A stretch of DNA of 33,842 bases from positions 1-33,842 of the IMG/VR virus record IMGVR_UViG_3300023170_002429; one strand, given 5' to 3'. This DNA comes from a virus. The notes under the pieces are model-generated. The model was not told the origin of the DNA, made no database searches, and saw only the letters and a list, made by a program, of their open reading frames with translations. Numbering within the stretch: the first letter of the stretch is position 1; every line of letters begins with the position of its first letter. A program made the translations under genes and the position numbers. This document shows positions 18,064 to 33,842 of this stretch, one piece after another.

Positions 18064-18065
18064 CC

Positions 18066-18103: not shown

Positions 18104-18126
18104 GATATTATTAGTTTGATCAAAAA

Positions 18127-19744: not shown

Positions 19745-20601
19745 TGAAAATTTTAAACTTAGGTTCTAGTGGGCAGATTGGTGCCTACCTTTCAGAGTAT
19801 CTTCGCAAGAAAGGTCATACTGTTATTGATTTCGATAAGAATGAAACTCCAAATCATGATTTGACTGTAATCCCAAATCAATATCTTGAGAACGCAATTG
19901 AGACTGCAGACTTTGTATTCTTCCTCGCATTTGATGTTGGTGGTTCACGTTATCTGAAGAAGTATCAACATACTTTTGATTTCATCAATAACAATACTCG
20001 TTTGATGGCCAATGTTTTTGGTCTTCTAGAGAAGTATAATAAGAGATTTGTCTTTGCATCATCTCAGATGAGTAACATGAGTTACTCTCCTTATGGTGTT
20101 ATGAAAAGAGTCGGTGAACTTTATACCACTGCACTGAAAGGACGGATCGTTAAGTTCTGGAATGTTTATGGTATTGAGAAAGATCACGAGAAGTCCCATG
20201 TTATTACTGACTTCATCCGTAAAGGATTTGAGGAAGGTGAGTTTGAGATGATGACCGATGGTACAGAAGAAAGACAGTTCTTGTATGCTGAGGATTGTTG
20301 TGAAGCTCTTGAGACTATCATGGAGAACTACACAGACTTCAAACCAGAAGATCCTCTTCATATCACTTCCTTCAGATCTACTTCAATTAAAGAAGTTGCT
20401 GAAACTATCCAAGGTCAGTTTAATCTCATCGGTAAATATGATGTAAGAATTAAACCAGGTCTTGCAAAAGATAGTGTTCAAATGGATAAGAGAAACGAAG
20501 CAGATACCTATATTACTGGATGGTGGGTGCCTAAGACTGGTATAGATAAGGGAATTGCTGCAGTCTTCAATGAAATGAAAAAGGAGTATGGCTATGTATA
20601 G
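19744..20601 (+). CDS. NAD-dependent sugar epimerase/dehydratase (WcaG-like SDR)
   Basis: The 285-residue product has GSSGQIG at residues 7-13, LAFDVGGSRY in place of the usual region after the third strand, FASSQMSNMSYSPYGVMKRV with catalytic Ser and Y117xxxK121, FWNVYG and TEERQFLYAEDCCEAL, typical of extended SDR enzymes acting on nucleotide sugars. It is slightly shorter than average (300-340). A reductase/epimerase step on the island's sugar is likely, and a WcaG-type GDP-fucose synthase role is possible but not shown. It overlaps the next gene by 8 bases. Confidence 0.75.
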   Translation: MKILNLGSSGQIGAYLSEYLRKKGHTVIDFDKNETPNHDLTVIPNQYLENAIETADFVFFLAFDVGGSRYLKKYQHTFDFINNNTRLMANVFGLLEKYNKRFVFASSQMSNMSYSPYGVMKRVGELYTTALKGRIVKFWNVYGIEKDHEKSHVITDFIRKGFEEGEFEMMTDGTEERQFLYAEDCCEALETIMENYTDFKPEDPLHITSFRSTSIKEVAETIQGQFNLIGKYDVRIKPGLAKDSVQMDKRNEADTYITGWWVPKTGIDKGIAAVFNEMKKEYGYV

Positions 20602-21223
20602 TCAGATTGATAACATTTTTCCAGAATTTAAAAACAGTAATACTTGTGATATCACAAGTTTTTCAAAAAAAATTATAGATCTCGAAGATGGTGATATTAT
20701 TGAGTTTGGTGTAGCTTCTGCACAAACTACGATAGAAATCGCTAGATTCAATTCCAGTCGTAAACTATTTGCTTTTGATCATTTCCAAGGACTTGAACAA
20801 TCTGCGAAACCCCTTCCCAGTCACGCTGGATGGCATGAAGGAGCATTTAGAGTTGGTGATCCAGATCACCCTTGGATTCCTGATTCTATCGAAGGTGTTT
20901 TCAAAAAGCTTGAACCCTATCCTAATGTGAATCTTTTTGTTGAGGATGTTCATGAGTTGAAAGATCCTTCTGAGTATGGTATCGGAAAAATTGTTGCGGT
21001 AAACATAGATGTCGATATTTACGAACCAACAGTTTCTTGCCTAAACTGGTTAAACAAATGTGATTGGGATAAACTTTATATTCGTTTTGATGATTGGCAT
21101 GGACATGAACCTCTATTTGATCACCACGAAAGACTTGCCGCAAAGGAATGGTTGGAAAGAACGGGGTATAACTATGATGTTCCAGAAAATGGACACGTTG
21201 GTGGAATGATTGTTTGGAGGTAA
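20594..21223 (+). CDS. TylF/macrocin-type O-methyltransferase-like protein
   Basis: ATG 20594 is preferred over 20588 because AGGAG at 20582-20586 is then correctly spaced; the product is 209 residues. IIEFGVASAQTTIEIA is the SAM-binding motif, FAFDHFQGLEQ the second strand, and VNIDVDIYEPTVSCLNWL plus IRFDDWHGHE match the Asp-rich metal-binding motifs of TylF-family sugar O-methyltransferases. It probably methylates a hydroxyl on a sugar. The first gene was an epimerase, and three methyltransferase-type genes occur in the island, so the final glycan may be methylated. Confidence 0.72.
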   Translation: MYSQIDNIFPEFKNSNTCDITSFSKKIIDLEDGDIIEFGVASAQTTIEIARFNSSRKLFAFDHFQGLEQSAKPLPSHAGWHEGAFRVGDPDHPWIPDSIEGVFKKLEPYPNVNLFVEDVHELKDPSEYGIGKIVAVNIDVDIYEPTVSCLNWLNKCDWDKLYIRFDDWHGHEPLFDHHERLAAKEWLERTGYNYDVPENGHVGGMIVWR

Positions 21224-21224
21224 A

Positions 21225-21440
21225 ATGAAACTATTGACCCTTGAAGACTACCAAAAGGCAGGTGAAACATTCTGGCCTAAGTATTGGTATATTTCCAAAG
21301 AGTTGGGGGAAGATGCAAAACCAGAAGACATTCTAAAAGTAATGGAAGCGGTCGGTGGTGTTGCTCTCAAACTTAAACTTGAAGAAGAAACGGCACCATT
21401 TGGATTTAACAAAAAGAAAGATGACGAAGTTCAAGATTAA
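21225..21440 (+). CDS. 71-residue small protein, unknown
   Basis: ATG 21225 follows a textbook GGAGGT ribosome-binding site in the end of the previous gene. The product (MKLLTLEDYQKAGETFWPKY at the start) is acidic and helical, with VMEAVGGVALKLKLEEE and a Lys-rich then Asp-rich tail. It overlaps the GT10 gene by 20 bases in another frame. The N-terminal EDYQKAGETFWPKYWYISKE pattern is unfamiliar to me; it may assist neighbouring enzymes. Confidence 0.65.
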   Translation: MKLLTLEDYQKAGETFWPKYWYISKELGEDAKPEDILKVMEAVGGVALKLKLEEETAPFGFNKKKDDEVQD

Positions 21441-22221
21441 TCTACACTGCAATGATTCACTAAAACCGTCTACATCTGATAAGAATACTTCTAAGTTTAC
21501 TGAGTGGGTTTATGATGGTTCTGGTGCAGTAAGTTTATATGTAAATCAAAGATCTTTAGATATATTTCAGGATATTTCTAATACTCCAAAGTATATTTGG
21601 CTACTTGAGTCTAAACAAATTGTTCAGAGTGTTTATGATTGGATTCTTGCAAACTATGACTTTGTTGCTTCCAGAGTGGACGGAATTTTTTCTCCCGATA
21701 AGGAACTTTGTGAAAAGTATCCAAAGTTTCAATATGCTTTGAGTAATGCAGCACCGTGGATTGAAGAACGAAAGATCTATGAAAAGACCAAACTGGTCTC
21801 TATGATCTCTTCAAATAAGGCTATGGTTCCTGGTCATCGTAAGAGACTTGAATTTGTAAACAAGTTTAGAGATCAAGTTGATCTTTATGGTCGTGGGTTC
21901 CGCGATCTTCCTAGAAAGGAAGAGGGTATGAAAGACTATATGTTCTCCGTGGCCGTAGAGAATGCCGTCTATGATACATACTTTACGGAGAAACTTACAG
22001 ATTGTTTCGCTACAGGGACAATTCCTGTTTTCTACGGATGTAGAGGAGTCACAGAATATTTCAACGAAGATGGAATTATATTCCTAGATGATGACTTTGA
22101 TGTTTCTACTTTGACAGAAGATCTTTATTATTCTAAAATGGATGCGATCAAAGACAACTTTGAACGTGCAAACAATCTGCCAGTGGCAGAAGATTACCTA
22201 TACGAAACTTATTGGAAATGA
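21421..22221 (+). CDS. GT10 (alpha-1,3/4-fucosyltransferase-family) glycosyltransferase
   Basis: The start is ATG 21421, inside the previous gene, giving 266 residues. The C-terminal half bears the GT10 donor-binding signature: GHRKRLEFVNKF, VDLYGRGF, then YMFSVAVENAVYDTYFTEKL and DCFATGTIPVFYGCRG followed by VTEYFNEDGIIFLDD, aligning with the FxLAFENSxxxDYVTEK...G.VPVY..P motif. GT10 enzymes use GDP-L-fucose; with GDP-mannose 3,5-epimerase upstream, GDP-L-galactose is a candidate donor. No membrane anchor is present. It overlaps the next gene by ATGA. Confidence 0.85.
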   Translation: MTKFKINLHCNDSLKPSTSDKNTSKFTEWVYDGSGAVSLYVNQRSLDIFQDISNTPKYIWLLESKQIVQSVYDWILANYDFVASRVDGIFSPDKELCEKYPKFQYALSNAAPWIEERKIYEKTKLVSMISSNKAMVPGHRKRLEFVNKFRDQVDLYGRGFRDLPRKEEGMKDYMFSVAVENAVYDTYFTEKLTDCFATGTIPVFYGCRGVTEYFNEDGIIFLDDDFDVSTLTEDLYYSKMDAIKDNFERANNLPVAEDYLYETYWK

Positions 22222-22994
22222 GTACATACAAAGGTTGGGAAGCAGAAGCTAAATATGCAAATGAATATCTAGATGCCTGTCGTAGTGCAGTTGCAGATGA
22301 TGATATCTTTGCAAGATTCAAATCATTGGAAGGATATAAACATATTCTAGAACATGTAACTCCACGTCAAGGTGCGGAGTATTTGCAACTTGCTTTGGAG
22401 ATGTCTGAGGAAGCTTTTTATAAAAATCTAAAAAAGTTTAAGGAAAACGATTCTATCGGAACTCCTGATACGTTTGCTTTTCCAGAAACGGGTAAAATCT
22501 CTCCCACTACAATCCGATACATCAAGAATGTATTTGAGATGGCTACTCTCTTAGGAGATGCACCAATCAGTCGTGTAGTAGAAGTTGGTGGCGGGTACGG
22601 TGGACTTTGCAAGACCTTGAGTGTGGTCTGTGATTTTGATGAATACGTTCTGGTTGATCTTCCAGAAGCAGTTGCAGTTCAAGAAAAATTTATTAGTAAC
22701 TTCCCAGAACTCCATAAGAAGTGTAAGTTCGTCAGTTGCGATGACGTAGAGGAAGTTAAGGACGTTGATCTGTTTATTAGTAACTATGCACTCTCTGAGT
22801 GTGATTACGATACCCAGGTGAATTACTATGATAAGTTGGTTGCAAATTCTAAGTTTGCTTATATTATCTACAACCTTGTCAACTTTAACGATTTCTACTA
22901 TAATAAATTTACCGAAAGGATGAGTGAACGGTTTGAGTTTACTACCGATAAGGACTACGAAAACACTGTTATTCTCGCAAAGGAAAAGAACTGA
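22218..22994 (+). CDS. Putative sugar O-methyltransferase
   Basis: ATG 22218 overlaps the GT10 stop; a frame start six bases upstream is less likely. The 258-residue product has TIRYIKNVFEMATLLG then SRVVEVGGGYGGLCKTL, a SAM-binding motif, VLVDLPEAVAVQEKFI as the second strand, and DLFISNYALSECDYDTQVNY. The ETGK/SPTTIRY and EVGGGYGGLCK pattern is that of the putative sugar O-methyltransferases found in polysaccharide clusters. It shares a base with the nadE start. Confidence 0.72.
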   Translation: MSTYKGWEAEAKYANEYLDACRSAVADDDIFARFKSLEGYKHILEHVTPRQGAEYLQLALEMSEEAFYKNLKKFKENDSIGTPDTFAFPETGKISPTTIRYIKNVFEMATLLGDAPISRVVEVGGGYGGLCKTLSVVCDFDEYVLVDLPEAVAVQEKFISNFPELHKKCKFVSCDDVEEVKDVDLFISNYALSECDYDTQVNYYDKLVANSKFAYIIYNLVNFNDFYYNKFTERMSERFEFTTDKDYENTVILAKEKN

Positions 22995-23782
22995 TGAATC
23001 GTATTCATGACTATGATGAATTAGAAGATCGGATTGTAAAATGGATCTCAGACTACTGTCTCTATTATAAAATCAAGAATCTAGTCGTAGGAATCTCTGG
23101 AGGAATTGATTCTTCAGTTGTTTCTACTCTCTGTGCATTGACTGGTATCAAAACCTATGTGGTTGGAATGCCTATCAATCAACTAGAGAATCAAGAGTCA
23201 TTGTCTGATGCTCATGGTCAGTGGTTAACTTCAAAGTTTAATAACGTGGAGTTTATGAAAACTGACATGAGTCAAGTTTATGATTCGTTCCTACAGACAG
23301 TATCCAATGATATCGGTGAACGGTTCGCAACTAATACTCTTGCACAAGCTAACACTCGTTCCCGTATCCGCATGGTAACTCTTTATCAGGTTGCAGGATC
23401 TGTTGGTGGTATCGTCGTTGGTACTGGTAATAAGGTTGAAGATTATGGTGTAGGTTTCTACACTAAGTATGGTGATGGTGGTATTGATATTGCTCCTATT
23501 GCTGATCTTTATAAGACGGAAGTGTGGAGACTTGGTGAACATCTAGGTGTTGATGAGAGAATCATCTCTGCTGCACCTACTGATGGTCTCTGGGATGATG
23601 GTCGCACTGATGAAGATCAGATCGGAACTTCTTATAGTATGCTTGAGTGGGTTATGGAGAAGGGTCTAACTGAAGATCCACTCTTCCTGAATGAAGAACA
23701 GACTAATGCAATCAATGTGTATCAGAAGTTCCACTCGCAAAACAAACATAAGATGGTAGAAATTCCCACATTCAAACTATGA
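22994..23782 (+). CDS. nadE: NAD+ synthetase, ammonia-dependent type
   Basis: The 262-residue product has the ATP-pyrophosphatase loop SGGIDSS at 35-41, NTRSRIRMVTLYQVA, VVGTGNKVEDYGVGFYTKYG, the GGIDIAPIADLYKTEVWRL stretch and APTDGLWDDGRTDEDQIG, together diagnostic of NadE, which amidates deamido-NAD+ to NAD+. No glutaminase domain is present. It lies in the middle of a glycan island, between a methyltransferase and a UDP-glucose dehydrogenase gene, overlapping both. Supplying NAD+ for the dehydrogenase and epimerases is the simplest reading; general NAD restoration in infected cells, including after NAD-depleting defences, is the other. Confidence 0.92.
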   Translation: MNRIHDYDELEDRIVKWISDYCLYYKIKNLVVGISGGIDSSVVSTLCALTGIKTYVVGMPINQLENQESLSDAHGQWLTSKFNNVEFMKTDMSQVYDSFLQTVSNDIGERFATNTLAQANTRSRIRMVTLYQVAGSVGGIVVGTGNKVEDYGVGFYTKYGDGGIDIAPIADLYKTEVWRLGEHLGVDERIISAAPTDGLWDDGRTDEDQIGTSYSMLEWVMEKGLTEDPLFLNEEQTNAINVYQKFHSQNKHKMVEIPTFKL

Positions 23783-24891
23783 AAATTGGACTAATCGGAG
23801 CAGGAAGACTTGGTATCTGTTTCGCACTTCTCTTGGAGGGTGCGGGATATGATGTTTTAGTTTCGGATATTAGGGAGGATTATGTAGATGGTCTTAATAA
23901 AAGAATCATTTCTACTAATGAGCCTTCTGTACAAGAACTTCTTAGTAAATCTGTAAAATTTGAAGCAACGACAGATAATAGGAGAGTCATTAAAGAGTGT
24001 GATATAATCTATACATTAGTTGCAACTCCATCATTGCCTGATGGAAGTTATGATGTGAGTGCTGTATGGAAAGTCATTGAGGATATTCAGTCTTGTGAAT
24101 TTGAATTGGATGGGAAAAGTTTTGTTGTAGGATGTACAACCAATCCAGGAGACTGTGAACTATTCCAAACAGAACTCAATCCATATGGAGTTGATGTTTA
24201 CTACAATCCAGAGTTTATCGCACAAGGATCAATTATCAGAGACTTGGAAAATGCCGATATGGTTTTGATAGGAGGCCAAGGTAAACATCTTGAAGATCTT
24301 ATTGGAATATACAATGGAATTCAGGTTACTAAACCTTCTATTTCTGTTATGTCAACTTCATCTGCTGAAATAGTTAAAATTGCAGTTAACTGTTTCATGA
24401 CTACTAAGATTAGTTTTGCAAATATGATTGGTGAGGTTCTTGTTCTTTCTGGACTTGAAGATGAAATTGATTCTGTTCTTTCCTCTATCGCAAGTGATAC
24501 TAGAATTGGAAACAAATACATGAAGTATGGATTTGGTTTTGGTGGTCCTTGTTTACCCAGAGACAATAGAGCCTTTGGTAAATATGCAGAGAAATTGGGA
24601 TTGAAATATAATCTTGGTACAACTACGGATGATTTTAATAATGAACATGCAAAGTTTTTGAAAGAGTATTTCATTAGAAAAAATGACAGGAACTTGCCAT
24701 TTGCTTTTCATTACATTTCCTATAAAGGAGGAACAGATATTCTTACCGAAAGTCAACAATATCGTTTGTGTCTAGATTTGTTAGATTCTGGATATAAAGT
24801 TTATGTTGTTGAAGATTATGTAAAAACTCAAAGTGATGGTAGAATAATCTTTGGCATTCCCAATGAAGAAGTATTTTGGATTGAATTATGA
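23779..24891 (+). CDS. UDP-glucose/GDP-mannose dehydrogenase family protein
   Basis: The 370-residue product has the N-terminal NAD-binding motif GLIGAGRLGICFALLL, TNEPSVQELL, TLVATPSLPDG, YNPEFIAQGSIIRDLENADM, and the catalytic Cys near residue 258 in FGFGGPCLPRDNRAF. This set identifies the UDP-glucose 6-dehydrogenase family, which oxidises a nucleotide sugar to its uronic acid with two NAD+. It is shorter than typical bacterial enzymes (about 390-440), mostly at the C-terminal domain. Which nucleotide sugar is used is not certain. Its NAD+ demand fits the nadE gene directly upstream. Confidence 0.85.
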   Translation: MKIGLIGAGRLGICFALLLEGAGYDVLVSDIREDYVDGLNKRIISTNEPSVQELLSKSVKFEATTDNRRVIKECDIIYTLVATPSLPDGSYDVSAVWKVIEDIQSCEFELDGKSFVVGCTTNPGDCELFQTELNPYGVDVYYNPEFIAQGSIIRDLENADMVLIGGQGKHLEDLIGIYNGIQVTKPSISVMSTSSAEIVKIAVNCFMTTKISFANMIGEVLVLSGLEDEIDSVLSSIASDTRIGNKYMKYGFGFGGPCLPRDNRAFGKYAEKLGLKYNLGTTTDDFNNEHAKFLKEYFIRKNDRNLPFAFHYISYKGGTDILTESQQYRLCLDLLDSGYKVYVVEDYVKTQSDGRIIFGIPNEEVFWIEL

Positions 24892-25748
24892 TTGGTTACA
24901 ATAGATTGGGTAGTAATGGTCGTCTGGGAAACCAGATGTTTCAGTATGCAGCTTTAAGAGGTATCGCTTCTAAACGTGGATATGATTTTTGTATTCCACC
25001 AGAAGATTATAATCATAAAGATAATTACGGACTTTTTGAAACCTTTAAACTCTCAAATGTTAAGGATTCCAACATAGGTTTTGTTGGAGATCAATATATA
25101 CAAGAGAATGATCATTGTTTTATTTCAGAATTTTTTGATCAATGTCCAGACAATGTAAGTCTTGACGGATACTTCCAAACAGAAAAGTATTTTGCACACA
25201 TTAAAGATGAAATACTGGAAGACTTCACGTTTAGAGAAGACTATCTCACTCCTTGTATGGAGTACATTGATAGCTTGGATGATGCTCCTATTTTCCTGCA
25301 TATTCGTCAGTCTGACAACATCGGCAGAGAAGAGTACCATCCCATCCTCCCTATCTCATATTTTGAAGACGCGCTAAAAGAATTCCCTGAAGATACTCCT
25401 TGTTTCGTCTTTACTGATGACATGGAGTGGTGTAAGTCTCAAGAGTTCTTTAAACAGGATCGTTTTCTGTTTAACGAAAGTAACGGAAGATATTCTTATA
25501 AAAATATTGATGGTACTGGAAAACTACAAAATACTTTACTTCCTCAAGTAGATCTTTGTTTAATGAGTCTCTGTTCTGGTGCTATTATCGCAAACTCATC
25601 GTTCTCCTGGTGGGGAGCATGGTTGCAAAATGATCGTGGTAAGGTAGTTGCACCAGATCCTAAGAAGTGGTTTGGTACTGCAATGACTCACCTAGATACA
25701 TCAGACATCGTGCCTGATCGTTGGACTATTCAAGAGTGGAGTAAGTAA
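24888..25748 (+). CDS. GT11 glycosyltransferase (alpha-1,2-fucosyltransferase family), copy 1
   Basis: The 286-residue product has the GT11 start NGRLGNQMFQYAALRGIA, a central DGYFQTEKYF, IFLHIRQSDNIG at the position of the family's HxRRxD motif, VFTDDMEWC, and the C-terminal LCSGAIIANSSFSWWGAWL. GT11 enzymes transfer L-fucose from GDP-L-fucose in alpha-1,2 linkage. This copy differs from the two others in having HIRQSD rather than HVRRG[DS], so one Arg of the GDP-binding motif is replaced by Gln. It overlaps ugd-like and GT11 copy 2 by a few bases. Donor GDP-L-fucose or GDP-L-galactose is inferred. Confidence 0.85.
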   Translation: MIGYNRLGSNGRLGNQMFQYAALRGIASKRGYDFCIPPEDYNHKDNYGLFETFKLSNVKDSNIGFVGDQYIQENDHCFISEFFDQCPDNVSLDGYFQTEKYFAHIKDEILEDFTFREDYLTPCMEYIDSLDDAPIFLHIRQSDNIGREEYHPILPISYFEDALKEFPEDTPCFVFTDDMEWCKSQEFFKQDRFLFNESNGRYSYKNIDGTGKLQNTLLPQVDLCLMSLCSGAIIANSSFSWWGAWLQNDRGKVVAPDPKKWFGTAMTHLDTSDIVPDRWTIQEWSK

Positions 25749-26644
25749 TGGCTGTATCATTTAAAGGACTTGGTAACGAGGGGCGCCTCGGAAACCAAAT
25801 GTTTCAATACGCATTTATCCGTGGTCTCGCTGCAAATCGTGGAATGGACTGGATGATTCCTGGCCCAGAAGCAGATAGACTGGATAATTATGGTTTGTTT
25901 GACGCATTTGAACTTACTAATTGTGATCTAAATAAGAACACTGGAGAACCCTTCTACAAGACTGTAGAGTATAGGGAAATGCACTTTAATGAAGATATCT
26001 TCAATAATTGCCAAGACAATACGAACTTTTCTGGTATCTTCCAAACGGAAAGGTATTTCGAGGCCATCACCTCGTCTATCCGTGAGGATTTCACTTTTAA
26101 AAGAGCGTATACGGAACCGTGTCAAGAGTTTATTGATTCTCTTGGCGGAAGGGATAATTGTATCTTCTTGCATGTTCGTAGAGGTTCTCCAAATCTTACT
26201 GGTAGGAGAGGTGAGAAGTGGTCTTACCAGATGGTGCAGGAATACCATCCACTCTGTAAAGCTGACTATTATCTTGAAGCTCTAAAACAATTCCCAGAAG
26301 ATAAAAATGTGATTGTTGTTTCCGATCTTATTGATTGGTGCAAACGCCAAGAGTGGTTACAAGGTGATAGGTTCCACTTCTCTGATTCATCTTATGAAAC
26401 CTTCGGAGACGGTGCTGCCGTCCCCTACATTGACCTTTGTCTTATGAGTCTGTGTGGTGGTGCGATTATTGCTAACTCTTCTCTGAGTTGGTGGGGAGCA
26501 TGGTTGCAAGGGGATATCGGTAAAGTTGTTGTTCCCGACCCTTGGTTTGGTCCTGCATACGCACACTACAACATGAAGGATATGATCCCTGAGAGATGGG
26601 TGAAGATTCATAATGACCCATCTCCCGTCGCTATAGAAGAATGA
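25748..26644 (+). CDS. GT11 glycosyltransferase, copy 2
   Basis: The 298-residue product repeats the GT11 pattern: EGRLGNQMFQYAFIRGLA, FSGIFQTERYF, CIFLHVRRGSPNLTGRRG, VIVVSDLIDWC, and LCGGAIIANSSLSWWGAWL. The HVRRG motif is intact, followed by Ser-Pro-Asn instead of Asp. It is the longest of the three paralogues. It directly follows copy 1, sharing one base, which suggests tandem duplication and divergence. DNA in parts of this gene is more GC-rich than in copy 1. Confidence 0.87.
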   Translation: MAVSFKGLGNEGRLGNQMFQYAFIRGLAANRGMDWMIPGPEADRLDNYGLFDAFELTNCDLNKNTGEPFYKTVEYREMHFNEDIFNNCQDNTNFSGIFQTERYFEAITSSIREDFTFKRAYTEPCQEFIDSLGGRDNCIFLHVRRGSPNLTGRRGEKWSYQMVQEYHPLCKADYYLEALKQFPEDKNVIVVSDLIDWCKRQEWLQGDRFHFSDSSYETFGDGAAVPYIDLCLMSLCGGAIIANSSLSWWGAWLQGDIGKVVVPDPWFGPAYAHYNMKDMIPERWVKIHNDPSPVAIEE

Positions 26645-27462
26645 ACGATTTAACTTTCCTACTACCGTGTAGAATCGAGTCTGAAGATAGACTTAGAAAT
26701 GTTATTACATCTGTAACATATCTCCTAAAAAATTTCCCAGAGTCTAAAGTCCTTATAAAGGAAGTAGATACACACTCACACTTTAAGTTTAGAGCACTTC
26801 CTGAAATTAAAAAATATGTGAACACTAATATGTTGACACATATTTTTGAAGAATCTGGAGATAAGTTTTTTCATAAGACAAGGATTCTTAATGATTTGCT
26901 GGTTGCTTCAGATACTGGAGTAGTTTATAATTACGATGTAGACGTAGTTCTTCCCAAGTCTAGTTATGAAACTGCATATAATCTAATCAAAAGTGATAGA
27001 CTTGATGCGGTTTATCCTTTTGGATGTGGTGCTTATGTTTGGTGTGTCAATTATCCTGCTCCGGCTTTTAATCAATTCTTAGATTCCAATTTTGATTTTT
27101 CAGTATTGGATGAGTATAAATTCAAACTTCCATCCACAATTGGTTGGGGACAAATGCTTAAGAGAGACGTTGAGATTAAAGTAGGACTCTGGAATGAAAA
27201 TTTTCTTTCTTGGGGAGCAGAAGATTGTGAATTCTACTATAGACTAAATGCTCTGGGATTTAAAGTTGGTAGAGTAAATGATGTAATCTATCATTTTGAA
27301 CATGGTAGAACATTCAATTCTCACTACAATAATCCAAAGTTTATGGATAATCATAATCTATGGCAAAATATTAGAACTTGGGATGCAGAAAAACTAGTAC
27401 AGTATTATGAACAACAACCTTACATTAGACAACGGGGAGAACAATTAAATGTTGGCGTTTAA
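26641..27462 (+). CDS. GT2/GT7-like glycosyltransferase
   Basis: The 273-residue product has FLLPCRIESEDRLRNVITS at the start, typical of GT-A transferases that begin with an LxPxRxE strand, then VYNYDVDVVLP with a DxD metal motif near residue 100, and GWGQMLKRDV, SWGAEDCEFYYRLNALGF with the WGxEDxEFxxR motif of the galactosyltransferase C-terminal (GT7-like) domain, ending VIYHFEHGR. It probably adds a hexose to the growing glycan. It sits between GT11 copies 2 and 3, with overlaps to each. Confidence 0.75.
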   Translation: MNDLTFLLPCRIESEDRLRNVITSVTYLLKNFPESKVLIKEVDTHSHFKFRALPEIKKYVNTNMLTHIFEESGDKFFHKTRILNDLLVASDTGVVYNYDVDVVLPKSSYETAYNLIKSDRLDAVYPFGCGAYVWCVNYPAPAFNQFLDSNFDFSVLDEYKFKLPSTIGWGQMLKRDVEIKVGLWNENFLSWGAEDCEFYYRLNALGFKVGRVNDVIYHFEHGRTFNSHYNNPKFMDNHNLWQNIRTWDAEKLVQYYEQQPYIRQRGEQLNVGV

Positions 27463-28303
27463 TCATCTTGGTAACATTGGTCGTTTAGGGAACCAAATGT
27501 TCCAGTATGCAGCATTAAGAGGTATTGCTGCAGCAAAAGGATATGATTGGTGTATTCCACCTTTCGGAATTTCTAGAGTTGATAATTATAGTCTTGCAAA
27601 TTGTTTCCTAATGGATGATGTCAAGTCTACCAATCAATATATTCTAGATCGTGGTCATGCTCCTATCGTTCAGGAACGTGGATTCAATTTTGATCAGGAA
27701 CTTCTTCAATTGTGTCCAAATGATGTTTCCATTCATGGATTTTTTCAGACGGAAAAGTACTTTGCACATATTAAAGATACTATTCGTAGTGAATTTACTT
27801 TCCATGATGATCTAACAAATCCAGTAAAAGAATTTGTAGATCAACTAAATGATCCCATTTTCTTGCATGTTCGTCGTGGTGATCCCAACCTTGTTGATGC
27901 TCGTGGATTTAAATGGGCATATACAGAATGTTCGGATCAACATCCTCCCCAACCTCTAGAGTACTACGAAAAGGCACTTGAACTCTTCCCAGAGGATCAA
28001 GAAGTTATTGTTGTCTCAGATTCGCCTGAGTGGGTTATGGAACAAGAAATTTTTAAACCAGATAGATTTTACGTTTCTACTCCAGAAGAGAAATATCCAG
28101 ATGGATCCTATACTCCATATGTTGACCTTTGTATTATGGCGAATTGTAAAGGTGGTATTATTGCAAACTCTACTTTGTCTTGGTGGGGTGCTTGGTTGCA
28201 GAATGGTGCTGGCAAGATTGTAGCCCCTAAAATGTGGTTTGGTCCTGCATACGCACAAAACGATACTAGTGATCTTTATTGCGAAGGTTGGGAAGTTATT
28301 TGA
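27449..28303 (+). CDS. GT11 glycosyltransferase, copy 3
   Basis: The 284-residue product shows the GT11 pattern again: IGRLGNQMFQYAALRGIA, IHGFFQTEKYFAHIKD, IFLHVRRGDPNLVD, VIVVSDSPEWV, and CKGGIIANSTLSWWGAWL. It carries the most canonical HVRRGD motif of the three, and its N-terminal half resembles copy 1 more closely (YAALRGIA, FQTEKYFAHIKD) while the centre resembles copy 2 (HVRRG-PN). It overlaps the GT2-like gene by 14 bases and shares a base with the GT25 gene. Confidence 0.87.
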   Translation: MLAFNHLGNIGRLGNQMFQYAALRGIAAAKGYDWCIPPFGISRVDNYSLANCFLMDDVKSTNQYILDRGHAPIVQERGFNFDQELLQLCPNDVSIHGFFQTEKYFAHIKDTIRSEFTFHDDLTNPVKEFVDQLNDPIFLHVRRGDPNLVDARGFKWAYTECSDQHPPQPLEYYEKALELFPEDQEVIVVSDSPEWVMEQEIFKPDRFYVSTPEEKYPDGSYTPYVDLCIMANCKGGIIANSTLSWWGAWLQNGAGKIVAPKMWFGPAYAQNDTSDLYCEGWEVI

Positions 28304-29112
28304 TGGAAACTACTGTAATGGACAAGAACAAATCTTCTTACAAACTTAAAGGAATTGGACCTATCTATTACATCAATTTAGATGGCCAACCAGAGAGAAA
28401 GACCTATATGGAGGGAATGTTTAATCGTTGGGAAATTGACGACTATGAACGTATCTCTGCATATGACGGTAGAGATGATGACCTGAGTGACATTATCCAC
28501 GGAAGGTATCCCGCAAACATGTCTTCTGGGGAAGTTGGATGTGTAACGTCTCATTTAAAACTTCTTAAACATTATTTGGAAACTTCTGATTCTCCATATT
28601 GTATTGTTATGGAGGATGATGTTGATATTGAAGTTGCTAAGTATTGGAATTTTACTTGGAATCAATTTGTTGCCAGACTTCCGTATGATTACGATGTAGT
28701 TCAACTTGCAATTATTTGTCCAGGAACTCTTCATGTCAATCTACATCGTAGATTTGTTAATGATTTTTCTACGGCATGTTATATTATTACCAGACATCAT
28801 GCAGAAAAGGTAGTTAGACTTCATTGTCGTGGAGAAAAATATAAGTTGGACCATGCAATTAAACCTCGTGCTGTCGCAGATGATTTAATATATAACTCTG
28901 GAAATACTTTTTCTATCCCTCTATTTTTGTATAGGATTGAATTGGGTTCTTCTATTCATCCGGAACATATTGAAATTTTCCATAGAGGATCTCATGATGG
29001 ACTTAGGAATCTTTGGCATACAAAAGGATCCGATTTAGAAATTGATAGACTCATGGACTTTGATCCTTATCTGGGAAGAACTTCTGAAGCTCAACCACCA
29101 CAACAAAGCTAA
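28303..29112 (+). CDS. GT25-family (LPS biosynthesis) glycosyltransferase
   Basis: ATG 28303 shares a base with the previous stop; a TTG 24 bases earlier is unlikely. The 269-residue product has the GT25 start IGPIYYINLDGQPERKTYM, SAYDGRD, SSGEVGCVTSHLKLLKHYL, CIVMEDDVDIEV with the EDD motif, and DVVQLAIICPG and ACYIITRHHAEKV further on. GT25 members transfer galactose or other hexoses to LPS or protein hydroxylysine. It is one of six glycosyltransferases in the island and could build the core to which the GT10/GT11 enzymes add branches. Confidence 0.82.
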   Translation: METTVMDKNKSSYKLKGIGPIYYINLDGQPERKTYMEGMFNRWEIDDYERISAYDGRDDDLSDIIHGRYPANMSSGEVGCVTSHLKLLKHYLETSDSPYCIVMEDDVDIEVAKYWNFTWNQFVARLPYDYDVVQLAIICPGTLHVNLHRRFVNDFSTACYIITRHHAEKVVRLHCRGEKYKLDHAIKPRAVADDLIYNSGNTFSIPLFLYRIELGSSIHPEHIEIFHRGSHDGLRNLWHTKGSDLEIDRLMDFDPYLGRTSEAQPPQQS

Positions 29113-30179
29113 TGAAACTGTCAAAAATTCCTGGTTTAGGTAGATTTGGTGTTTTTATTGATGATATAGATCTCAACAATGTCACTGAAGAAGAATGGAT
29201 GGAAATTGGTAAAATCCATCTTGATTCTTTGGTGACTATTATTCGTGGTAATAATATAGATCATAAAACTTATTATGATTTAGTTTTAAAGTTTGGAGAT
29301 CCACGTTGGTTAAAACCACTTCAATTGTATAAAAAATATGGTAAACCAGTAAGACAACTACTTTTAAAGAGACTATTAGATGAGTCTGATCGTAATGATC
29401 TCTTAAATGATAAGAGATGGGTTGTTGATAGAAAGTGTCCTGGTATGCTTAGAATTACGCCCAAGAAAGACTCTGAAGGCAGGTCTATTGGACTTTTTGG
29501 TGATGGAGAATTGTACTGGCATAGTAATGAATGTGGTAGTTTAGCCTTTACTCCTGGTGTGGCTTTGATGGGAGTAGAAAATATGGTAGGGAGTTCTACT
29601 GGATTTTGTACAACCGTTGATTGGTATGAAAAACAATCTGAATCATTTAAAAGTGAATTGGATGAGATGGTACTAGTTCATAATTTTAGAACCAAACATA
29701 GAGAGTTTGATGATAAAAATCGATTATATCTAGAGACTATGGTCGGATATGACCAACAACAAACACATTATTATCACAGTAATCAGTGTCCAAATAAAAA
29801 TACAGAATTTCCATTAGTGATTAAAAGTCCTGGTGAAATAAAGGGCCTTCATTATACTCCATGGACAATAGATTATATTAAAGGAATGAGTAAAGAAGAG
29901 AGTACCAAACTTCTTACTAAAATCAGTGAAGAGTTATTTACCGAAGAATACATATACGAACACAAATATCAGGACGATCACGATATATTACTGTTTGACA
30001 ATAGTATTACTCTTCATAATAGATCCGTTGAAAATGGATCCGCTCCAGATAGATTGGGGTATAGAATTCAGTTTGATTATGATAAGTTAATTCAAAAACA
30101 ATATCAACCATTTCTGCAAAAAGATTTTGCAGAAAGAAGAATATCTGACATGAATGACCTACATTTTGCAATGGCTTGA
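29112..30179 (+). CDS. TauD/TfdA-like dioxygenase with Asn at the usual Asp position
   Basis: The 355-residue product begins with a TauD-like segment (IPGLGRFGVFIDDIDLNNV), continues with GELYWHSNECGSLAFTPGVAL, where the H-x-D metal motif appears as H-S-N followed by E, and LMGVENMVGSSTGFC. The C-terminal part has HYTPWTIDY, DHDILLFDNSITLHNR with the distal His and SAPDRLGYRIQFDY with the terminal Arg. Fold assignment to the 2OG-Fe(II) clavaminate synthase/TauD group is good; whether Asn or the next Glu serves as ligand is unclear. It is the last gene of the island and may hydroxylate a glycan part or small molecule. Early and late promoter signals for the next gene begin at its stop. Confidence 0.75.
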   Translation: MKLSKIPGLGRFGVFIDDIDLNNVTEEEWMEIGKIHLDSLVTIIRGNNIDHKTYYDLVLKFGDPRWLKPLQLYKKYGKPVRQLLLKRLLDESDRNDLLNDKRWVVDRKCPGMLRITPKKDSEGRSIGLFGDGELYWHSNECGSLAFTPGVALMGVENMVGSSTGFCTTVDWYEKQSESFKSELDEMVLVHNFRTKHREFDDKNRLYLETMVGYDQQQTHYYHSNQCPNKNTEFPLVIKSPGEIKGLHYTPWTIDYIKGMSKEESTKLLTKISEELFTEEYIYEHKYQDDHDILLFDNSITLHNRSVENGSAPDRLGYRIQFDYDKLIQKQYQPFLQKDFAERRISDMNDLHFAMA

Positions 30180-30209
30180 CATTAACCTAAAGTTAAGGTA
30201 ATATAAATA
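30176..30209 (+). promoter_or_regulatory. Overlapping early and late promoters of the porin-like gene
   Basis: TTGACA (30176-30181), 17 bases, TAATAT (30199-30204) is a sigma-70-type promoter; TATAAATA (30202-30209) is an exact late box. The late box begins three bases into the early -10, the same geometry as in front of psbA. TTGACA itself overlaps the stop of the TauD-like gene. Confidence 0.75.
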
Positions 30210-30383
30210 ACAAGACGTGACGTAATGTTACGTTTTACAACAAACCGAAGCCTCAACTACTCGCCTAGGTCTTGTTGCCCGAACCACTTAGTTGTGGTAC
30301 ATTATTAATCGCGGTCGGAAAGTCGAACCCGACCCGTCATCTGCGGGTAACCATTCCGCAAGTAAACTAACGAGGTATCTAAA
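30210..30383 (+). promoter_or_regulatory. Long structured 5' leader of the porin-like gene
   Basis: The roughly 170-base leader has no convincing ORF but several short inverted repeats: CCAC/GTGG near 30281-30297, GGTCGG/CCGACC near 30313-30335, CCCG/CGGG near 30333-30348 and GCGG/CCGC near 30345-30360, some mutually exclusive. Near its 5' end it has AATGTTACGTTT, matching AATGTAACGTTT at the same place in the psbA leader. The later CCGCAAGTAAA also resembles ACGCAAGTAAA there. It may stabilise or regulate the mRNA. Confidence 0.5.
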
Positions 30384-30740
30384 ATGATCAAATCCGTATT
30401 CGCAGCTGCCGCTGCTGCTCCCCTTTTCGCTGGTGCTGCGTTTGCAGGGCCTTACGTTAACATCGAAGCCAACTCTGGTTTCGCTGGTAGCGACTACACC
30501 GGAACCACCACTGACTTCCATGTAGGTTACGAAGGCACCTCTGGTGCTGCTGCCTGGTACATCCAGGGTGGCCCTTCGGTTGTCAGCCCCGACGGTGGCG
30601 CTGCTGAGACCAAGTTCTCTGCTAAGACTGGCGGTTCTATCGCCGCTACCGATCGTCTTGGTGTTTATGGCGAAATCTCCTTCGTCAACGGTACGACCAA
30701 TTCGTACGGCACCAAAGCTGGTCTGAAGTACAGCTTCTGA
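30384..30740 (+). CDS. Exported porin-like / beta-barrel-type small protein
   Basis: The 118-residue product has a signal peptide (MIKSVFAAAAAAPLFAGAAF then AG) and a mature part of alternating polar and hydrophobic residues ending in Phe (AGLKYSF), which is the classic C-terminal signature of outer-membrane beta-strand proteins. It is far shorter than a full porin, so it may be a small barrel or a fragment-like paralogue. The gene is visibly more GC-rich than its neighbours with many C-ending codons, as in highly expressed or host-derived genes. It has its own early/late promoter pair, a long leader and its own terminator, so it is a strongly expressed single-gene unit. Confidence 0.72.
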   Translation: MIKSVFAAAAAAPLFAGAAFAGPYVNIEANSGFAGSDYTGTTTDFHVGYEGTSGAAAWYIQGGPSVVSPDGGAAETKFSAKTGGSIAATDRLGVYGEISFVNGTTNSYGTKAGLKYSF

Positions 30741-30760
30741 TAATCTGATCAGATAAAACT

Positions 30761-30786
30761 GAGGGGTGAGATTCCCCTCTTTTTTT
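30761..30786 (+). terminator. Rho-independent terminator after the porin-like gene
   Basis: GAGGGG (30761-30766), a 7-base loop, CCCCTC (30774-30779) and seven T. A separate perfect palindrome ATCTGATCAGAT (30743-30754) lies just upstream after the stop codon. The next small ORF starts on the base after the T run. Confidence 0.9.
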
Positions 30787-30966
30787 ATGATTAAAAAAAT
30801 TCTCTTTCATCCAGTTACGCACTTCAATCTTTTGGTTGTTGGGTTTCTAGTTTTGATTCAGGGTATGCACATGCACGCTCACTATACAATGGATATAGAT
30901 GTTGATTCGTATGTATATAATTTTTGTAGAAAAAACGTAGAGAAATGTCAGAGATTCATAAAGTAA
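30787..30966 (+). CDS. 59-residue one-helix membrane protein
   Basis: MIKKILFHPVTHFNLLVVGF begins a peptide with one membrane helix (LLVVGFLVLIQGM), a His/Met-rich patch (HMHAHYTMD) and a polar tail with two Cys. Its ATG follows the T run of the preceding terminator immediately, so its own transcript is unclear and it may depend on read-through. Plausible but modestly supported; function unknown. Confidence 0.45.
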   Translation: MIKKILFHPVTHFNLLVVGFLVLIQGMHMHAHYTMDIDVDSYVYNFCRKNVEKCQRFIK

Positions 30967-30993
30967 TAATTTAAACAGTAATCGTTACTACAA

Positions 30994-31020
30994 AGGAGCC
31001 CTTGACAGGGTTCCTTTTTT
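30994..31020 (+). terminator. Rho-independent terminator with a -35 box in its loop
   Basis: A 9-bp stem (AGGAGCCCT with AGGGTTCCT, one G-T pair) with a TGAC loop is followed by six T. The loop and flanks carry TTGACA, the -35 of the next promoter, so the end of one unit and the start of the next share the same bases. Confidence 0.88.
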
Positions 31021-31030
31021 ACTATATAAT
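31002..31030 (+). promoter_or_regulatory. Perfect-consensus sigma-70-type promoter for the hli cluster
   Basis: TTGACA (31002-31007), exactly 17 bases, TATAAT (31025-31030). It overlaps the terminator at 30994-31020. The predicted start is about 20 bases before the first hli ATG. A perfect consensus implies strong early transcription by host RNA polymerase. Confidence 0.9.
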
Positions 31031-31057
31031 ATGTAAAGATTTACAACAATATGTGAC

Positions 31058-31261
31058 ATGACTGTAACAACTAACGAATATGGCCAACAAAATATGTTCG
31101 CCAAAGAACCTCAAATGGTTGTGGAAGAGTACAACCGCAAGGGTCTCTTCTCCCCAATGCAACAACGTGAAATGTACAATGGTCGTTGGGCAATGATGGG
31201 TATTGTTATGGGCTTCGTCGCCTATGCCATCAACGGCAAATTCTTCTTTGGTATCTTCTGA
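31058..31261 (+). CDS. hli: High-light-inducible protein (Hli/HLIP)
   Basis: The 67-residue product has the chlorophyll-binding one-helix motif of high-light-inducible proteins: REMYNGRWAMMGIVMGFVAY, with the conserved E-x-x-N-G-R-x-A-M-x-G residues, then INGKFFFGIF. Hli proteins bind chlorophyll and carotenoid and protect photosystem II in cyanobacteria; cyanophage copies are thought to help during infection. It is the first gene after a perfect promoter and heads a run of tiny genes including a second hli. Confidence 0.93.
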   Translation: MTVTTNEYGQQNMFAKEPQMVVEEYNRKGLFSPMQQREMYNGRWAMMGIVMGFVAYAINGKFFFGIF

Positions 31262-31269
31262 GACAGACA

Positions 31270-31356
31270 ATGATTTCATCTTTATTTACAATTACTTCTG
31301 TTGCCTTCTTTGTATTGTTGGCATATTCTGTAGAGAAAGTGTGTGAAACCTATTGA
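31270..31356 (+). CDS. 28-residue membrane peptide
   Basis: MISSLFTITSVAFFVLLAYS then VEKVCETY is a single hydrophobic helix, the size of the small photosystem subunits, but I see no diagnostic match. It lies 8 bases after the hli stop and shares a base with the next ATG. Confidence 0.5.
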   Translation: MISSLFTITSVAFFVLLAYSVEKVCETY

Positions 31357-31505
31357 TGTCTAATGAAAATGCCTTGTGGGAAGACATGAGGAAACTTAAT
31401 GCCCTATACGAAGAACTCTGCTGGGGGCACGATGATGAACTAGTATTCACTCACGAAAATGGCAGAGTCGTTATTTACAACAAATCACTGGAGAAAGAAC
31501 AATGA
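31356..31505 (+). CDS. 49-residue soluble protein, unknown
   Basis: MSNENALWEDMRKLNALYEE is followed by LCWGHDDELVFTHENGRVVI and a basic end. It is acidic and mixed alpha/beta. It shares bases with the membrane peptide upstream and with the second hli downstream (ATGA overlap), so it is translated as part of the hli cluster. Confidence 0.6.
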   Translation: MSNENALWEDMRKLNALYEELCWGHDDELVFTHENGRVVIYNKSLEKEQ

Positions 31506-31621
31506 AATTTGGATTCACCCCTGAGGCCGAGATCCTCAACGCCCGTGCTGCAATGATTGGTTTTGTTGCTGCCGTCGGTTCCTACCTCACCACTGGACAG
31601 ATCATTCCTGGAGTATGGTGA
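31502..31621 (+). CDS. hli: Short high-light-inducible protein
   Basis: The 39-residue product is a minimal Hli: FTPEAEILNARAAMIGFVAA, with E-x-x-N-A-R-A-A-M-x-G (Ala for the usual Gly after Asn), then VGSYLTTGQIIPGVW, close to the typical cyanobacterial TTGQIIPG ending. It would form one chlorophyll-binding transmembrane helix that pairs with another. It is coupled to genes on both sides. Confidence 0.92.
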   Translation: MKFGFTPEAEILNARAAMIGFVAAVGSYLTTGQIIPGVW

Positions 31622-31749
31622 TGATTCTCCTAGCAACTATGATGCTGGGAGCATGGATTCTCATTAGTGCTATTGGCTCCGCTAATGACACTGACGATGA
31701 CGACGACATGGATGGGGGTATGATGATTCCCGCATATAACCCCATCTAG
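31621..31749 (+). CDS. 42-residue membrane-anchored acidic peptide
   Basis: MILLATMMLGAWILISAIGS is a membrane or signal-like helix, followed by NDTDDDDDMDGG and a hydrophobic end MMIPAYNPI. Its ATG uses the last base of the hli stop. The Asp run suggests a cation-binding or simply charged linker. No family recognised. Confidence 0.5.
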   Translation: MILLATMMLGAWILISAIGSANDTDDDDDMDGGMMIPAYNPI

Positions 31750-31753
31750 TCTG

Positions 31754-31782
31754 TTGACTTCTTAAGATTTTCTTGATAAACT
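31754..31782 (+). promoter_or_regulatory. Sigma-70-type promoter for the ferredoxin unit
   Basis: TTGACT (31754-31759), 17 bases, TAAACT (31777-31782), 24 bases before the ferredoxin ATG. It starts 5 bases after the previous stop. Confidence 0.65.
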
Positions 31783-31806
31783 TTTTACTGTCGTTTACTT
31801 CAAATC

Positions 31807-32100
31807 ATGACTACATATAACGTCACCTTCCAAACTCCCGATGGTACTGAAACTACGGTTGAATGTGCTGACGATCAATACATCCTTGAAGCTGCAGAAG
31901 AAGCAGGTATTGACCTCCCTTACTCATGTAAAGCAGGTGCTTGTTCAGCTTGTGCAGGAAAACTCATCTCTGGTTCCGTAGACAACAGCGATCAATCCTT
32001 CTTGGATGATGAACAGATGGATGAAGGTTTCATCTTGACTTGTGTTGCCTATCCGACTAGTGATTGTACCATTCTTACCGAACAAGAGGAGAACCTGTGA
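31807..32100 (+). CDS. petF: Plant-type [2Fe-2S] ferredoxin
   Basis: The 97-residue product is a normal-length photosynthetic ferredoxin: [20 protein letters not shown], then [17 protein letters not shown] with the C-x4-C-x2-C cluster ligands, and [14 protein letters not shown] with the fourth ligand. It carries electrons from photosystem I to reductases; in cyanophages it may feed biliverdin reductases or ribonucleotide reductase. It has its own promoter. The next gene starts at a GTG overlapping its stop. Confidence 0.96.
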
Positions 32101-32402
32101 CTGGAAATCTTGAACCTGAAGAACGAGTAATGTCTCAACCAGGTATCATTGAACAGATTTCTACAATTGTTGAAAAACTTGGGTGGGAAACTGGAGATGA
32201 TATCTCCGTAGATATCGGTGGTACTGTCGTATCTGGTATCAACCAAGGTGAAAACTATAATGAAAAATGGGCAACACCTTATGGTGTTCGCAAGTACAAC
32301 AAAGATGCGTTCATCGTGATTAAGAATCTATCACGGACGCCCTTTGAACCAAGTAAACCTAATCCTGAATTAAAAGCTAAACATGCCTCAACTGACTCCT
32401 GA
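32097..32402 (+). CDS. Conserved-looking small protein after ferredoxin, unknown
   Basis: I start at GTG 32097, which overlaps the ferredoxin stop (GTGA) and follows GAGGAG at good distance; an internal ATG at 32130 is the alternative. The 101-residue product has a helical start ([20 protein letters not shown]), a strand-rich middle ([20 protein letters not shown]), [17 protein letters not shown] and a polar tail. No domain recognised. Its 3' end overlaps the peroxiredoxin gene by 20 bases. Confidence 0.6.
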
Positions 32403-32916
32403 AGAAAAATCTGTAGTCCCTTCAGTGGACTTTATGTTCCGTGAAGACGGAGAGTTTGTGACTCGTTCTACCGAGGAACTCTTCAACGGAAAGAAAGTAG
32501 TTCTGTTTGCCCTTCCTGGTGCATTCACTCCTACTTGTAGTGCTTACCAACTCCCTGGTTATGAATCCTTCTATGACATGTTCGCAGAAGCAGGTGTTGA
32601 CGAGATCTATTGTCTGTCTGTCAATGATGCCTTTGTGATGAATGCATGGGCAAAAGATCAGAACATTGAGAAAGTCAAACTGATCCCCGATGGTAATGGT
32701 GAATTCACGACTGCTATGGGTATGCTTGTGAAGAAATTCAATCTTGGATTTGCATCTCGTTCCTGGCGTTATGCCATGGTTGTTAATGATGGTGTGATCG
32801 AACAGATCTTCATGGAAGATGGTAAAGAAGATAACGCTTCTGAAGATCCTTATAATTGGTCTTCTCCGGAAAAAGTGTTAGAATATGTGAGGACTTCTGT
32901 TCTTACAACTGCTTGA
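32383..32916 (+). CDS. Peroxiredoxin (Prx5/hybrid-type AhpC-TSA family)
   Basis: The 177-residue product has the peroxiredoxin active site FALPGAFTPTCSAYQLPGYE, with the P-x3-T-x2-C motif and peroxidatic Cys near residue 51, then EIYCLSVNDAFVMNAWAKDQ and KLIPDGNGEFTTAMGM, matching the Prx5-like group found in cyanobacteria and plants. It reduces hydrogen peroxide and alkyl hydroperoxides with thiol donors. Beside hli, ferredoxin and psbA, it would limit oxidative damage from continued photosynthesis. No glutaredoxin domain is fused. Confidence 0.9.
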   Translation: MPQLTPEEKSVVPSVDFMFREDGEFVTRSTEELFNGKKVVLFALPGAFTPTCSAYQLPGYESFYDMFAEAGVDEIYCLSVNDAFVMNAWAKDQNIEKVKLIPDGNGEFTTAMGMLVKKFNLGFASRSWRYAMVVNDGVIEQIFMEDGKEDNASEDPYNWSSPEKVLEYVRTSVLTTA

Positions 32917-32925
32917 TATAAAAAT

Positions 32926-33489
32926 ATGGCTGCTTCCCTTACCCTTGAAGACCTGAATACATATGCAACTAAACTTGAAAATTTGGTTGAAGATGTAAAT
33001 GAATATTCTACTTTTATTGAAACTGGTACTTCTTATGGTGCCAGTATCAACTCCATCTTTCGTTATTTTAAAAAGATATGGACTGTAGAATTATCTGAAG
33101 AACTTTACGCATTTGCAAAACCCCTTACAGATTCTATTCCACATTGCACTCATATCCGTGGTGATAGTTTAATTGAACTTCCAAAGTATCTGAATAGTAT
33201 CACTGAGAATGACAAGGCATTCTTTTGGTTAGATGCTCATTACTCTTCTGGTAACACTGCAAGAAATCATCTTGATGTTCCTCTCATTGAGGAGTGTGTT
33301 TTGATTGATAAACACTATAAAGGTGAAAGTGCAATCGTAGTTATCGATGATGTCAGACTCTTTGGTACTAATGAAAATGAAGACTGGAGTTACGTCAGCG
33401 AAGAAGGTGTAAGAAAGTCATTTGAAAATTTTGAAATTAAATTTTTCGAAATAATCCAAGATAGACTTCTACTTTATATTCAAAAATAA
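32926..33489 (+). CDS. SAM-dependent methyltransferase-like protein
   Basis: The 187-residue product has STFIETGTSYGASINSIF as a SAM-binding first strand and loop, IWTVELSEELYAFAKPL as the second strand, HIRGDSLIELPKYL, then AFFWLDAHYSSGNT and AIVVIDDVRLFG. The pattern is that of class I methyltransferase-like proteins common in phage and polysaccharide clusters. It starts 9 bases after the peroxiredoxin stop and ends directly before a terminator. Substrate unknown. Confidence 0.65.
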   Translation: MAASLTLEDLNTYATKLENLVEDVNEYSTFIETGTSYGASINSIFRYFKKIWTVELSEELYAFAKPLTDSIPHCTHIRGDSLIELPKYLNSITENDKAFFWLDAHYSSGNTARNHLDVPLIEECVLIDKHYKGESAIVVIDDVRLFGTNENEDWSYVSEEGVRKSFENFEIKFFEIIQDRLLLYIQK

Positions 33490-33493
33490 AGAC

Positions 33494-33522
33494 AAACCTC
33501 CACTTGACCGTGGGGGTTTTTT
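33494..33522 (+). terminator. Rho-independent terminator with TTGACC in its loop
   Basis: A 7-bp stem (CCTCCAC 33497-33503 with GTGGGGG 33510-33516, one G-T pair), extendable by A-T pairs, with a TTGACC loop and six T. It closes the ferredoxin-peroxiredoxin-methyltransferase unit. Confidence 0.9.
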
Positions 33523-33532
33523 ATTGTATATT
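33504..33532 (+). promoter_or_regulatory. Promoter whose -35 is the terminator loop
   Basis: TTGACC (33504-33509), 17 bases, TATATT (33527-33532). It repeats the terminator/promoter overlay seen at 30994-31030. A transcript would start near 33539 and run through a short imperfect dyad (GTCCC near 33558 with GGGAC near 33583) into the psbA promoter region. It may give a longer psbA mRNA or a short RNA. Confidence 0.55.
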
Positions 33533-33587
33533 AGCCATGTCTTCGGGTTTCGCCCCTGTCCCCAAATGGGAATCCCCAAATTGGGAC

Positions 33588-33621
33588 TTGACAGGTGGTG
33601 AAAACCGTAGTATTATAAATA
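33588..33621 (+). promoter_or_regulatory. Overlapping early and late promoters of psbA
   Basis: TTGACA (33588-33593), 17 bases, TATTAT (33611-33616) is a strong early promoter; TATAAATA (33614-33621) is an exact late box starting three bases into the -10. The arrangement matches that at 30176-30209 and implies psbA expression both early and late. Confidence 0.82.
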
Positions 33622-33801
33622 CATCAACACGTTAAGGAATGTAACGTTTCTTAAATTAGTTGTAACACTTGTGGAAAAGGGTCTAACCACCTTACCGAGG
33701 CTACGCAAGTAAAAGACGCCTCTTATATCTCTGTCTGAGGGTGACAGAGAAATAAGTACCTCCACCATTTCCCTGATGGACTTACTTACTTTTTCAAAAC
33801 A
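33622..33801 (+). promoter_or_regulatory. Structured 5' leader of psbA
   Basis: The 180-base leader has no credible ORF. It shows ACGTT/AACGT near 33630-33650, GAGGC/GCCTC near 33699-33722, and a perfect 8-bp hairpin TCTCTGTC/GACAGAGA near 33728-33751. A conserved RNA called PhotoRC-II is known upstream of psbA in cyanophage and marine DNA; this leader is a candidate, but I cannot verify the match. With the terminator and promoters before it, it fills the 312-base gap between genes. Confidence 0.55.
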
Positions 33802-33842
33802 ATGACTGCTACTCTTTCACGTCAAAAACAATCGAATACTTG
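33802..33842 (+). CDS. psbA: Photosystem II D1 protein, 5' end only
   Basis: Only about 13 residues are visible before the window ends (MTATLSRQKQSNT). They fit the start of D1 proteins, whose N-terminus reads MT-T-L-RR/QR-x-S before the first conserved WxxFC. The context supports this: overlapping early/late promoters, a long structured leader, and hli and ferredoxin genes upstream, the classic cyanophage photosynthesis block. D1 carries the redox-active Tyr and manganese ligands of photosystem II and is replaced often in light, so phage copies keep photosynthesis running. The product cannot be proven from so few residues. Confidence 0.8.
   Translation, partial: MTATLSRQKQSNT

Follow-up and report, generated by a model that had tools for sequence, protein, structure and literature searches.

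The window, that is, the whole 33.8-kb stretch of viral DNA analyzed here (33,842 nucleotides), contains an hli-ferredoxin-psbA region that matches T4-like cyanophages, with hli at 31058, the ferredoxin gene next and psbA from 33802 (Table 1). Between hli and a co-directional small ORF lies an element in which the bases of a predicted intrinsic terminator and of a predicted promoter overlap, termed composite below. The actual start of this upstream ORF is perhaps the ATG at 30787, just past a further hairpin (30761-30779) and T run, and the transcript ended by the terminator at 30992 is presumably that of the ORF. The embedded promoter would serve hli, a light-protection gene. Terminators and promoters were called by consensus, and the neighboring ORFs were called mechanically.

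Table 1. Predicted genes and regulatory features in the hli-psbA region of the window
Feature	Position	Strand	Description
Upstream ORF, 66 aa	30766-30966	+	Co-directional; stops 25 bases 5' of the hairpin
Hairpin of predicted intrinsic terminator	30992-31017	+	11 pairs, loop TGAC; from the fold and compensatory changes in relatives
-35 box TTGACA	31002-31007	+	Provides the hairpin loop and its closing pair
Promoter spacer	31008-31024	+	17 bases
T run of predicted terminator	31015-31020	+	Six T; first three T paired at the stem base
-10 box TATAAT	31025-31030	+	Spacing 17
hli (high-light-inducible protein), 67 aa	31058-31261	+	ORF; homologs annotated as high light inducible protein
Second, weaker composite	33494-33532	+	Hairpin 33494-33519, TTGACC at the loop, T run, TTGACC-17-TATATT
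psbA	start 33802		Our reading of the N-terminal sequence MTATLSRQ

The element comprises 39 bases of the plus strand (30992-31030; AAAGGAGCCCTTGACAGGGTTCCTTTTTTACTATATAAT). A preliminary description had placed TTGACA in the loop and flanks of the terminator and TATAAT exactly 17 bases further on, across the T run; both statements hold, with TGAC as the loop, the first T and the last A of TTGACA as the closing pair of the hairpin and the T run in the 3' part of the spacer. It had given the element 37 bases (30994-31030), which is exact as to the site but two bases short at the left. As in intrinsic terminators, a G+C-rich stem is followed directly by a T run (30992-31020), and, as in sigma-70-type promoters, TTGACA-17-TATAAT is conserved in relatives against diverging flanks. 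The RNA hairpin has a folding energy of -16.0 kcal/mol (z = -5.0; 0/200 shuffles). Within 20000-33842, the promoter at 31002-31030 is the sole 12/12 match, and the hairpin is one of two terminator-like calls with a long stem and a strong T run. A search of the window against Rfam gave no match at the element, returning only a wcaG RNA and tRNAs. The expectation that the overlap would exceed shuffled sequences was borne out: when all of the 60-bp region except the two hexamers was shuffled, a comparable structure, with at least eight pairs on the -35 box plus a T run, arose in 15 of 300,000 shuffles. Just 3' of the -10 box, an imperfect palindrome (31032-31049, TGTAAAGATTTACAACA), present in varied forms in many relatives, is possibly a leader hairpin or a regulator site.

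By our reading, the window holds four convincing intergenic terminators (17442, 30761, 30992, and 33494), two of which are composites. These two have unlike stems, and the promoter is weaker in the one at 33494, which lies 3' of an ORF ending at 33489 and upstream of psbA. The pattern TTGAC-N17/18-TATAAT matches three times in the window, against 0.08 matches expected; the other two matches (11840-11868 and 12340-12368) are full TTGACA-17-TATAAT sequences located just 5' of tRNA genes at 11885 and 12377. The hairpin and T run at 30992 are good by themselves, and one might hold that the terminator alone is functional and TTGACA in its loop incidental. This is extremely improbable in view of the excess of such matches, the placement of the other two before tRNA genes and the persistence of TTGAC-17/18-TATAAT at loci where the terminator is absent, described below. 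Elsewhere in the window, a psbA-proximal promoter, TTGACA-17-TATTAT (33588-33622), overlaps the T4-type late promoter sequence TATAAATA in TATTATAAATA, and DNA similar to this stretch recurs in other loci. A possible 32-aa ORF (33537-33635) was set aside because, apart from one close match, only its C-terminal stretch recurs, which corresponds to psbA promoter DNA. At 17338-17459, a wcaG RNA (Rfam RF01761) immediately precedes a terminator with a T run and the hairpin GGTGGGA-GAAA-TCCCACC. The epimerase gene at 18127 has no composite in the window (18030-18140), yet 38 composites precede its homologs elsewhere (compare loci L163, L172, and L066).

Comparison of 127 distinct hli upstream regions, collected from 80 IMG/VR loci encoding this hli and later additions, revealed a constant promoter and a variable hairpin; IMG/VR counts include related sequences. 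A promoter match was found in 125 of the 127, with a spacing of 17 in 108 and of 18 in 17; among these 125, the -35 box is TTGACA or TTGACG in 118 and the -10 box TATAAT or TATACT in 121. A hairpin centered on the -35 box is present in approximately 47 of the 127. Its stems are unlike one another (GGAGCCC/GGGTTCC, GCACCCC/GGGGTGC, GGCAGG/CCTGCC, GAGGGGC/GCCCCTC, and others), and it occurs in registers 2, 4, 5, 6, 7, and 8 relative to the -35 box. In the 12 sequences with register 5, 96.3% of cells are paired, both sides of a pair changed in 28 cells versus 8.3 in shuffles, and the covariation score is 0.83 versus 0.26; none of 500 shuffles reached the observed values, and sliding the pairing partner by one base abolished the signal. 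The T run is tied to the hairpin: both occur at 47 loci, a hairpin only at 0, a T run only at 10, and neither at 68 (p = 7e-25, not corrected for relatedness), and several of the 10 T-run-only loci appear by eye to have weaker hairpins. Covarying stems together with a T run tied to the hairpin suggest that selection acts on RNA pairing and the U run, while the promoter bases appear to be held constant. The claim of the preliminary description that one element ends one transcription unit and starts the next is supported computationally, and relatives retain both sequence signatures.

These data also bear on the view that the promoter alone is functional, with the hairpin either a palindrome arisen by chance or an operator for a protein bound over the -35 box. 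hli promoters devoid of a hairpin are indeed common, but a chance palindrome would have odds of 5e-5 per promoter, the hairpin is always accompanied by a T run, and the stems differ widely between loci with pairing kept, a pattern not required by a protein that recognizes a particular DNA sequence; we consider this view very unlikely. The many hli loci lacking the terminator, among them those of Syn9 and S-RSM4, indicate that the terminator is not essential. At approximately 25 such loci (e.g., L010, L060, and L093), the stop codon TGA of the upstream ORF appears to be the TGA of the -35 box TTGACA. The cultured phage S-SM2 carries the same element (167136-167203), unannotated, between a co-directional gene and hli03.

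The orientation of the upstream neighbor differs between hli loci with and without the composite. It was co-directional in 43 of 45 classifiable composite loci versus 51 of 74 loci without composite (Fisher p = 4e-4), and each of the two exceptions has two small candidate ORFs that differ little or hardly at all in size; on phylogenetically independent pairs, the orientation test was not significant (median p 0.375). Where the neighbor is clearly divergent, the promoter is kept and the terminator is absent. Mapped onto an hli DNA tree, presence or absence of the composite requires 27 changes, at least 11 of them on well-supported branches. These repeated changes imply that the terminator has been gained and lost while the promoter stayed in place, and its gain and loss may have proceeded by mutation or recombination. 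Hairpins can also act as DNA, as in the promoters of phage N4 and the Frpo site of the F plasmid. Were the hairpin a cruciform or single-stranded promoter rather than an RNA terminator, covarying stems would be selected as well; a strand-specific T run tied to the hairpin and an excess of composites below co-directional genes are, however, terminator traits that a cruciform would not need, and we regard a role as DNA as highly improbable.

The composite is not confined to hli. In a sample of 4.3 Mb of cyanomyovirus loci with 1,229 non-redundant terminators, we counted as composites those with a promoter match of at least 10/12 and a -35 box starting 6 to 20 bases before the stem end. The cyanophage enrichment predicted in the preliminary description was found: 130 terminators (10.6%) were composites, against 0.67% per 15 positions at other offsets. 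Five complete isolate genomes (Syn9, S-PM2, P-SSM2, S-RSM4, and P-SSM4) had 8 composites among 205 terminators. None was detected among 318 terminators in 1.45 Mb of cyanobacterial DNA, among the 49 terminators of T4, or in the T7-like cyanophages P-SSP7 and Syn5. Composites precede at least 38 downstream gene families, in an IMG/VR sample biased to its baits: of 143 elements, 81 belong to the hli and epimerase families. In psbD loci, some apparent promoters ahead of terminators were rejected, being the conserved coding end of psbD (LPRGNAL).

One version, with a consensus of approximately AACCGTCCACCACTCCTTGACGGGGGTGGTTTTTTATTGTATAATGACTTC, occurs in at least 70 distinct contexts and behaves as a mobile cassette, and near-identical copies (CCACTCCTTGACGGGGGTGGTTTTTTATTGTATAAT) lie 5' of at least 29 unrelated gene families. 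Sequence similar to the cassette was found in 74 named cyanophage records, and nearly all matches listed lie in unannotated DNA. This distribution, together with the at least 11 changes of the composite state on the hli tree, would be expected of an element that serves above all as a recombination cassette, the role suggested for the promoter-early stem-loops discussed below, with the regulatory overlap secondary. We consider such a primary role unlikely, since the hli stems are unlike, leaving little common sequence beyond the promoter, and since compensatory changes imply selection on pairing.

We therefore favor a bifunctional boundary element, which very probably serves as terminator for the upstream unit and as promoter for hli. 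RNA read through from upstream would carry the entire hairpin and the U run and would be released there, approximately 15 to 20 bases short of the next start site. Read as a consensus sigma-70-type promoter, the same DNA would start the hli transcript at approximately 31036-31038, 3' of the hairpin; the new RNA would thus lack the hairpin and escape termination. The likely outcome is insulation combined with fresh expression, the upstream polymerase being halted and hli transcription begun anew. The two codes fit together because each uses positions left free by the other: the free part of the terminator is its loop, which can be TTGACA, and the free parts of the promoter are its spacer and the bases before the -35 box, one stem arm plus the T run, approximately 17 bases, fitting the 17-base spacer. 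From the sequence we infer that RNA polymerase really stops and starts here, that a host sigma factor is used and where exactly transcription begins. The T4 functions by which host polymerase is redirected are missing from cyanomyoviruses, whose early genes are believed to be transcribed by the host sigma-70-type enzyme in unmodified form (PMC2984593). It is tempting to speculate on a relay, in which polymerase released at the U run stays on the -10/+1 region, rebinds sigma and restarts at the embedded promoter; upstream transcription would then feed hli rather than merely being insulated from it. Other systems are documented in which polymerase is retained after termination and initiates again (PMC6978322, PMC6978380), but we consider a relay at this element unlikely. 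Polymerase recycling after intrinsic termination resembles it as a way for a terminated polymerase to restart nearby, and differs in that the studies were single-molecule and E. coli work and not tied to overlapping elements (PMC6978322, PMC6978380).

A literature phrase search on promoter-terminator overlap returned no match. Composite promoter-terminators of T4-like myoviruses have, however, been described as promoter-early stem-loops (PeSLs; Arbiol et al. 2010; Comeau et al. 2014, cited in PMC4503421), so the composite is not a new kind of element. In PeSLs as in the cyanophage composite, a short intergenic stretch of a T4-like phage holds both an early promoter of sigma-70-like type and a stem-loop with terminator traits. 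Compared with RB49 and KVP40 sequences, the cyanophage composite appears to be of a PeSL-like kind with a different layout. The hairpin center, measured from the start of the -35 box, falls in bins 10-14 or 20-24 in RB49 and in bin 0-4 in cyanophages, i.e., with the -35 box in the loop. In RB49, ten elements have their hairpin between the two boxes (TTGACAGGGGATCGGTGATCCCCTATAAT) and eight around the -10 box, in either case lacking a T run, whereas in KVP40 the -35 box lies in the 5' arm of GGGTTGAC-TACG-GTCAGCCC, which has a short T run. These are probably the published PeSLs. None of them has the -35 box in the loop; in cyanophages, the -35 box is the loop, and a stem arm and the T run fill the spacer. 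The hli element further differs from PeSLs in that its stems are unlike one another and it is tied to one gene. Copies of similar sequence next to varied genes, a PeSL trait, were seen for the cassette (at least 29 families) but not for the hli element, the two composites of the window having unlike stems. Repeated gain and loss on the hli tree are nevertheless compatible with recombination or gene shuffling of the PeSL type. PeSLs were judged sparse in the cyanophage S-PM2 (PMC4503421), in which we found one composite, at an hli gene (124300-124325).

In the haloarchaeal virus HGTV-1, an inverted repeat and a TATA-like promoter precede many ORFs, and the authors of that study compare these motifs with PeSLs (PMC3950731); the promoter is archaeal in HGTV-1. 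Promoters and terminators were previously predicted separately by Sullivan et al. (2010; PMC3037559). A composite resembles the E. coli ampC-frd overlap in that one stretch closes one unit and opens the next, but differs in the position of its hairpin. In E. coli, the ampC promoter lies within frdD and the ampC attenuator is the frd terminator; the hairpin there follows the start site and acts as an attenuator on the newly begun RNA, whereas the cyanophage hairpin lies upstream of the predicted start.

The element illustrates that two codes, one read in DNA and one in RNA by the same enzyme, can share bases, the terminator loop and the promoter spacer being each other's free positions. What appears to be new is the layout with the -35 box in the loop, within a little-known class of phage elements; this layout recurs before dozens of other cyanophage gene families. 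Because the hli promoter is fixed while the hairpin varies in register and stem, the hli loci provide a natural series for tests in cyanophages, suited to promoter occlusion, insulation and polymerase reuse. The element also offers a simple signature for transcription-unit boundaries in many uncultured cyanophage genomes with unannotated regulatory sites.

A second overlap layout was observed in cyanophages, in which an extended -10 sequence, TGNTATAAT, abuts a terminator hairpin whose T run enters the ATG of the next gene (L031:12941, L046:9402, and approximately 60 other sites). Relative to the stem, TGNTATAAT is most frequent at offsets -6 and -8; its TG is in some cases supplied by a TGA stop codon, for instance that of psbD. 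In this layout, transcription of the next gene would begin within the hairpin, and the new RNA would thereby escape termination. Many cyanophage terminators have an ATG 4 to 8 bases 3' of the stem; at 30761-30787 of the window, hairpin, T run and ATG likewise abut, with no such extended -10 sequence.
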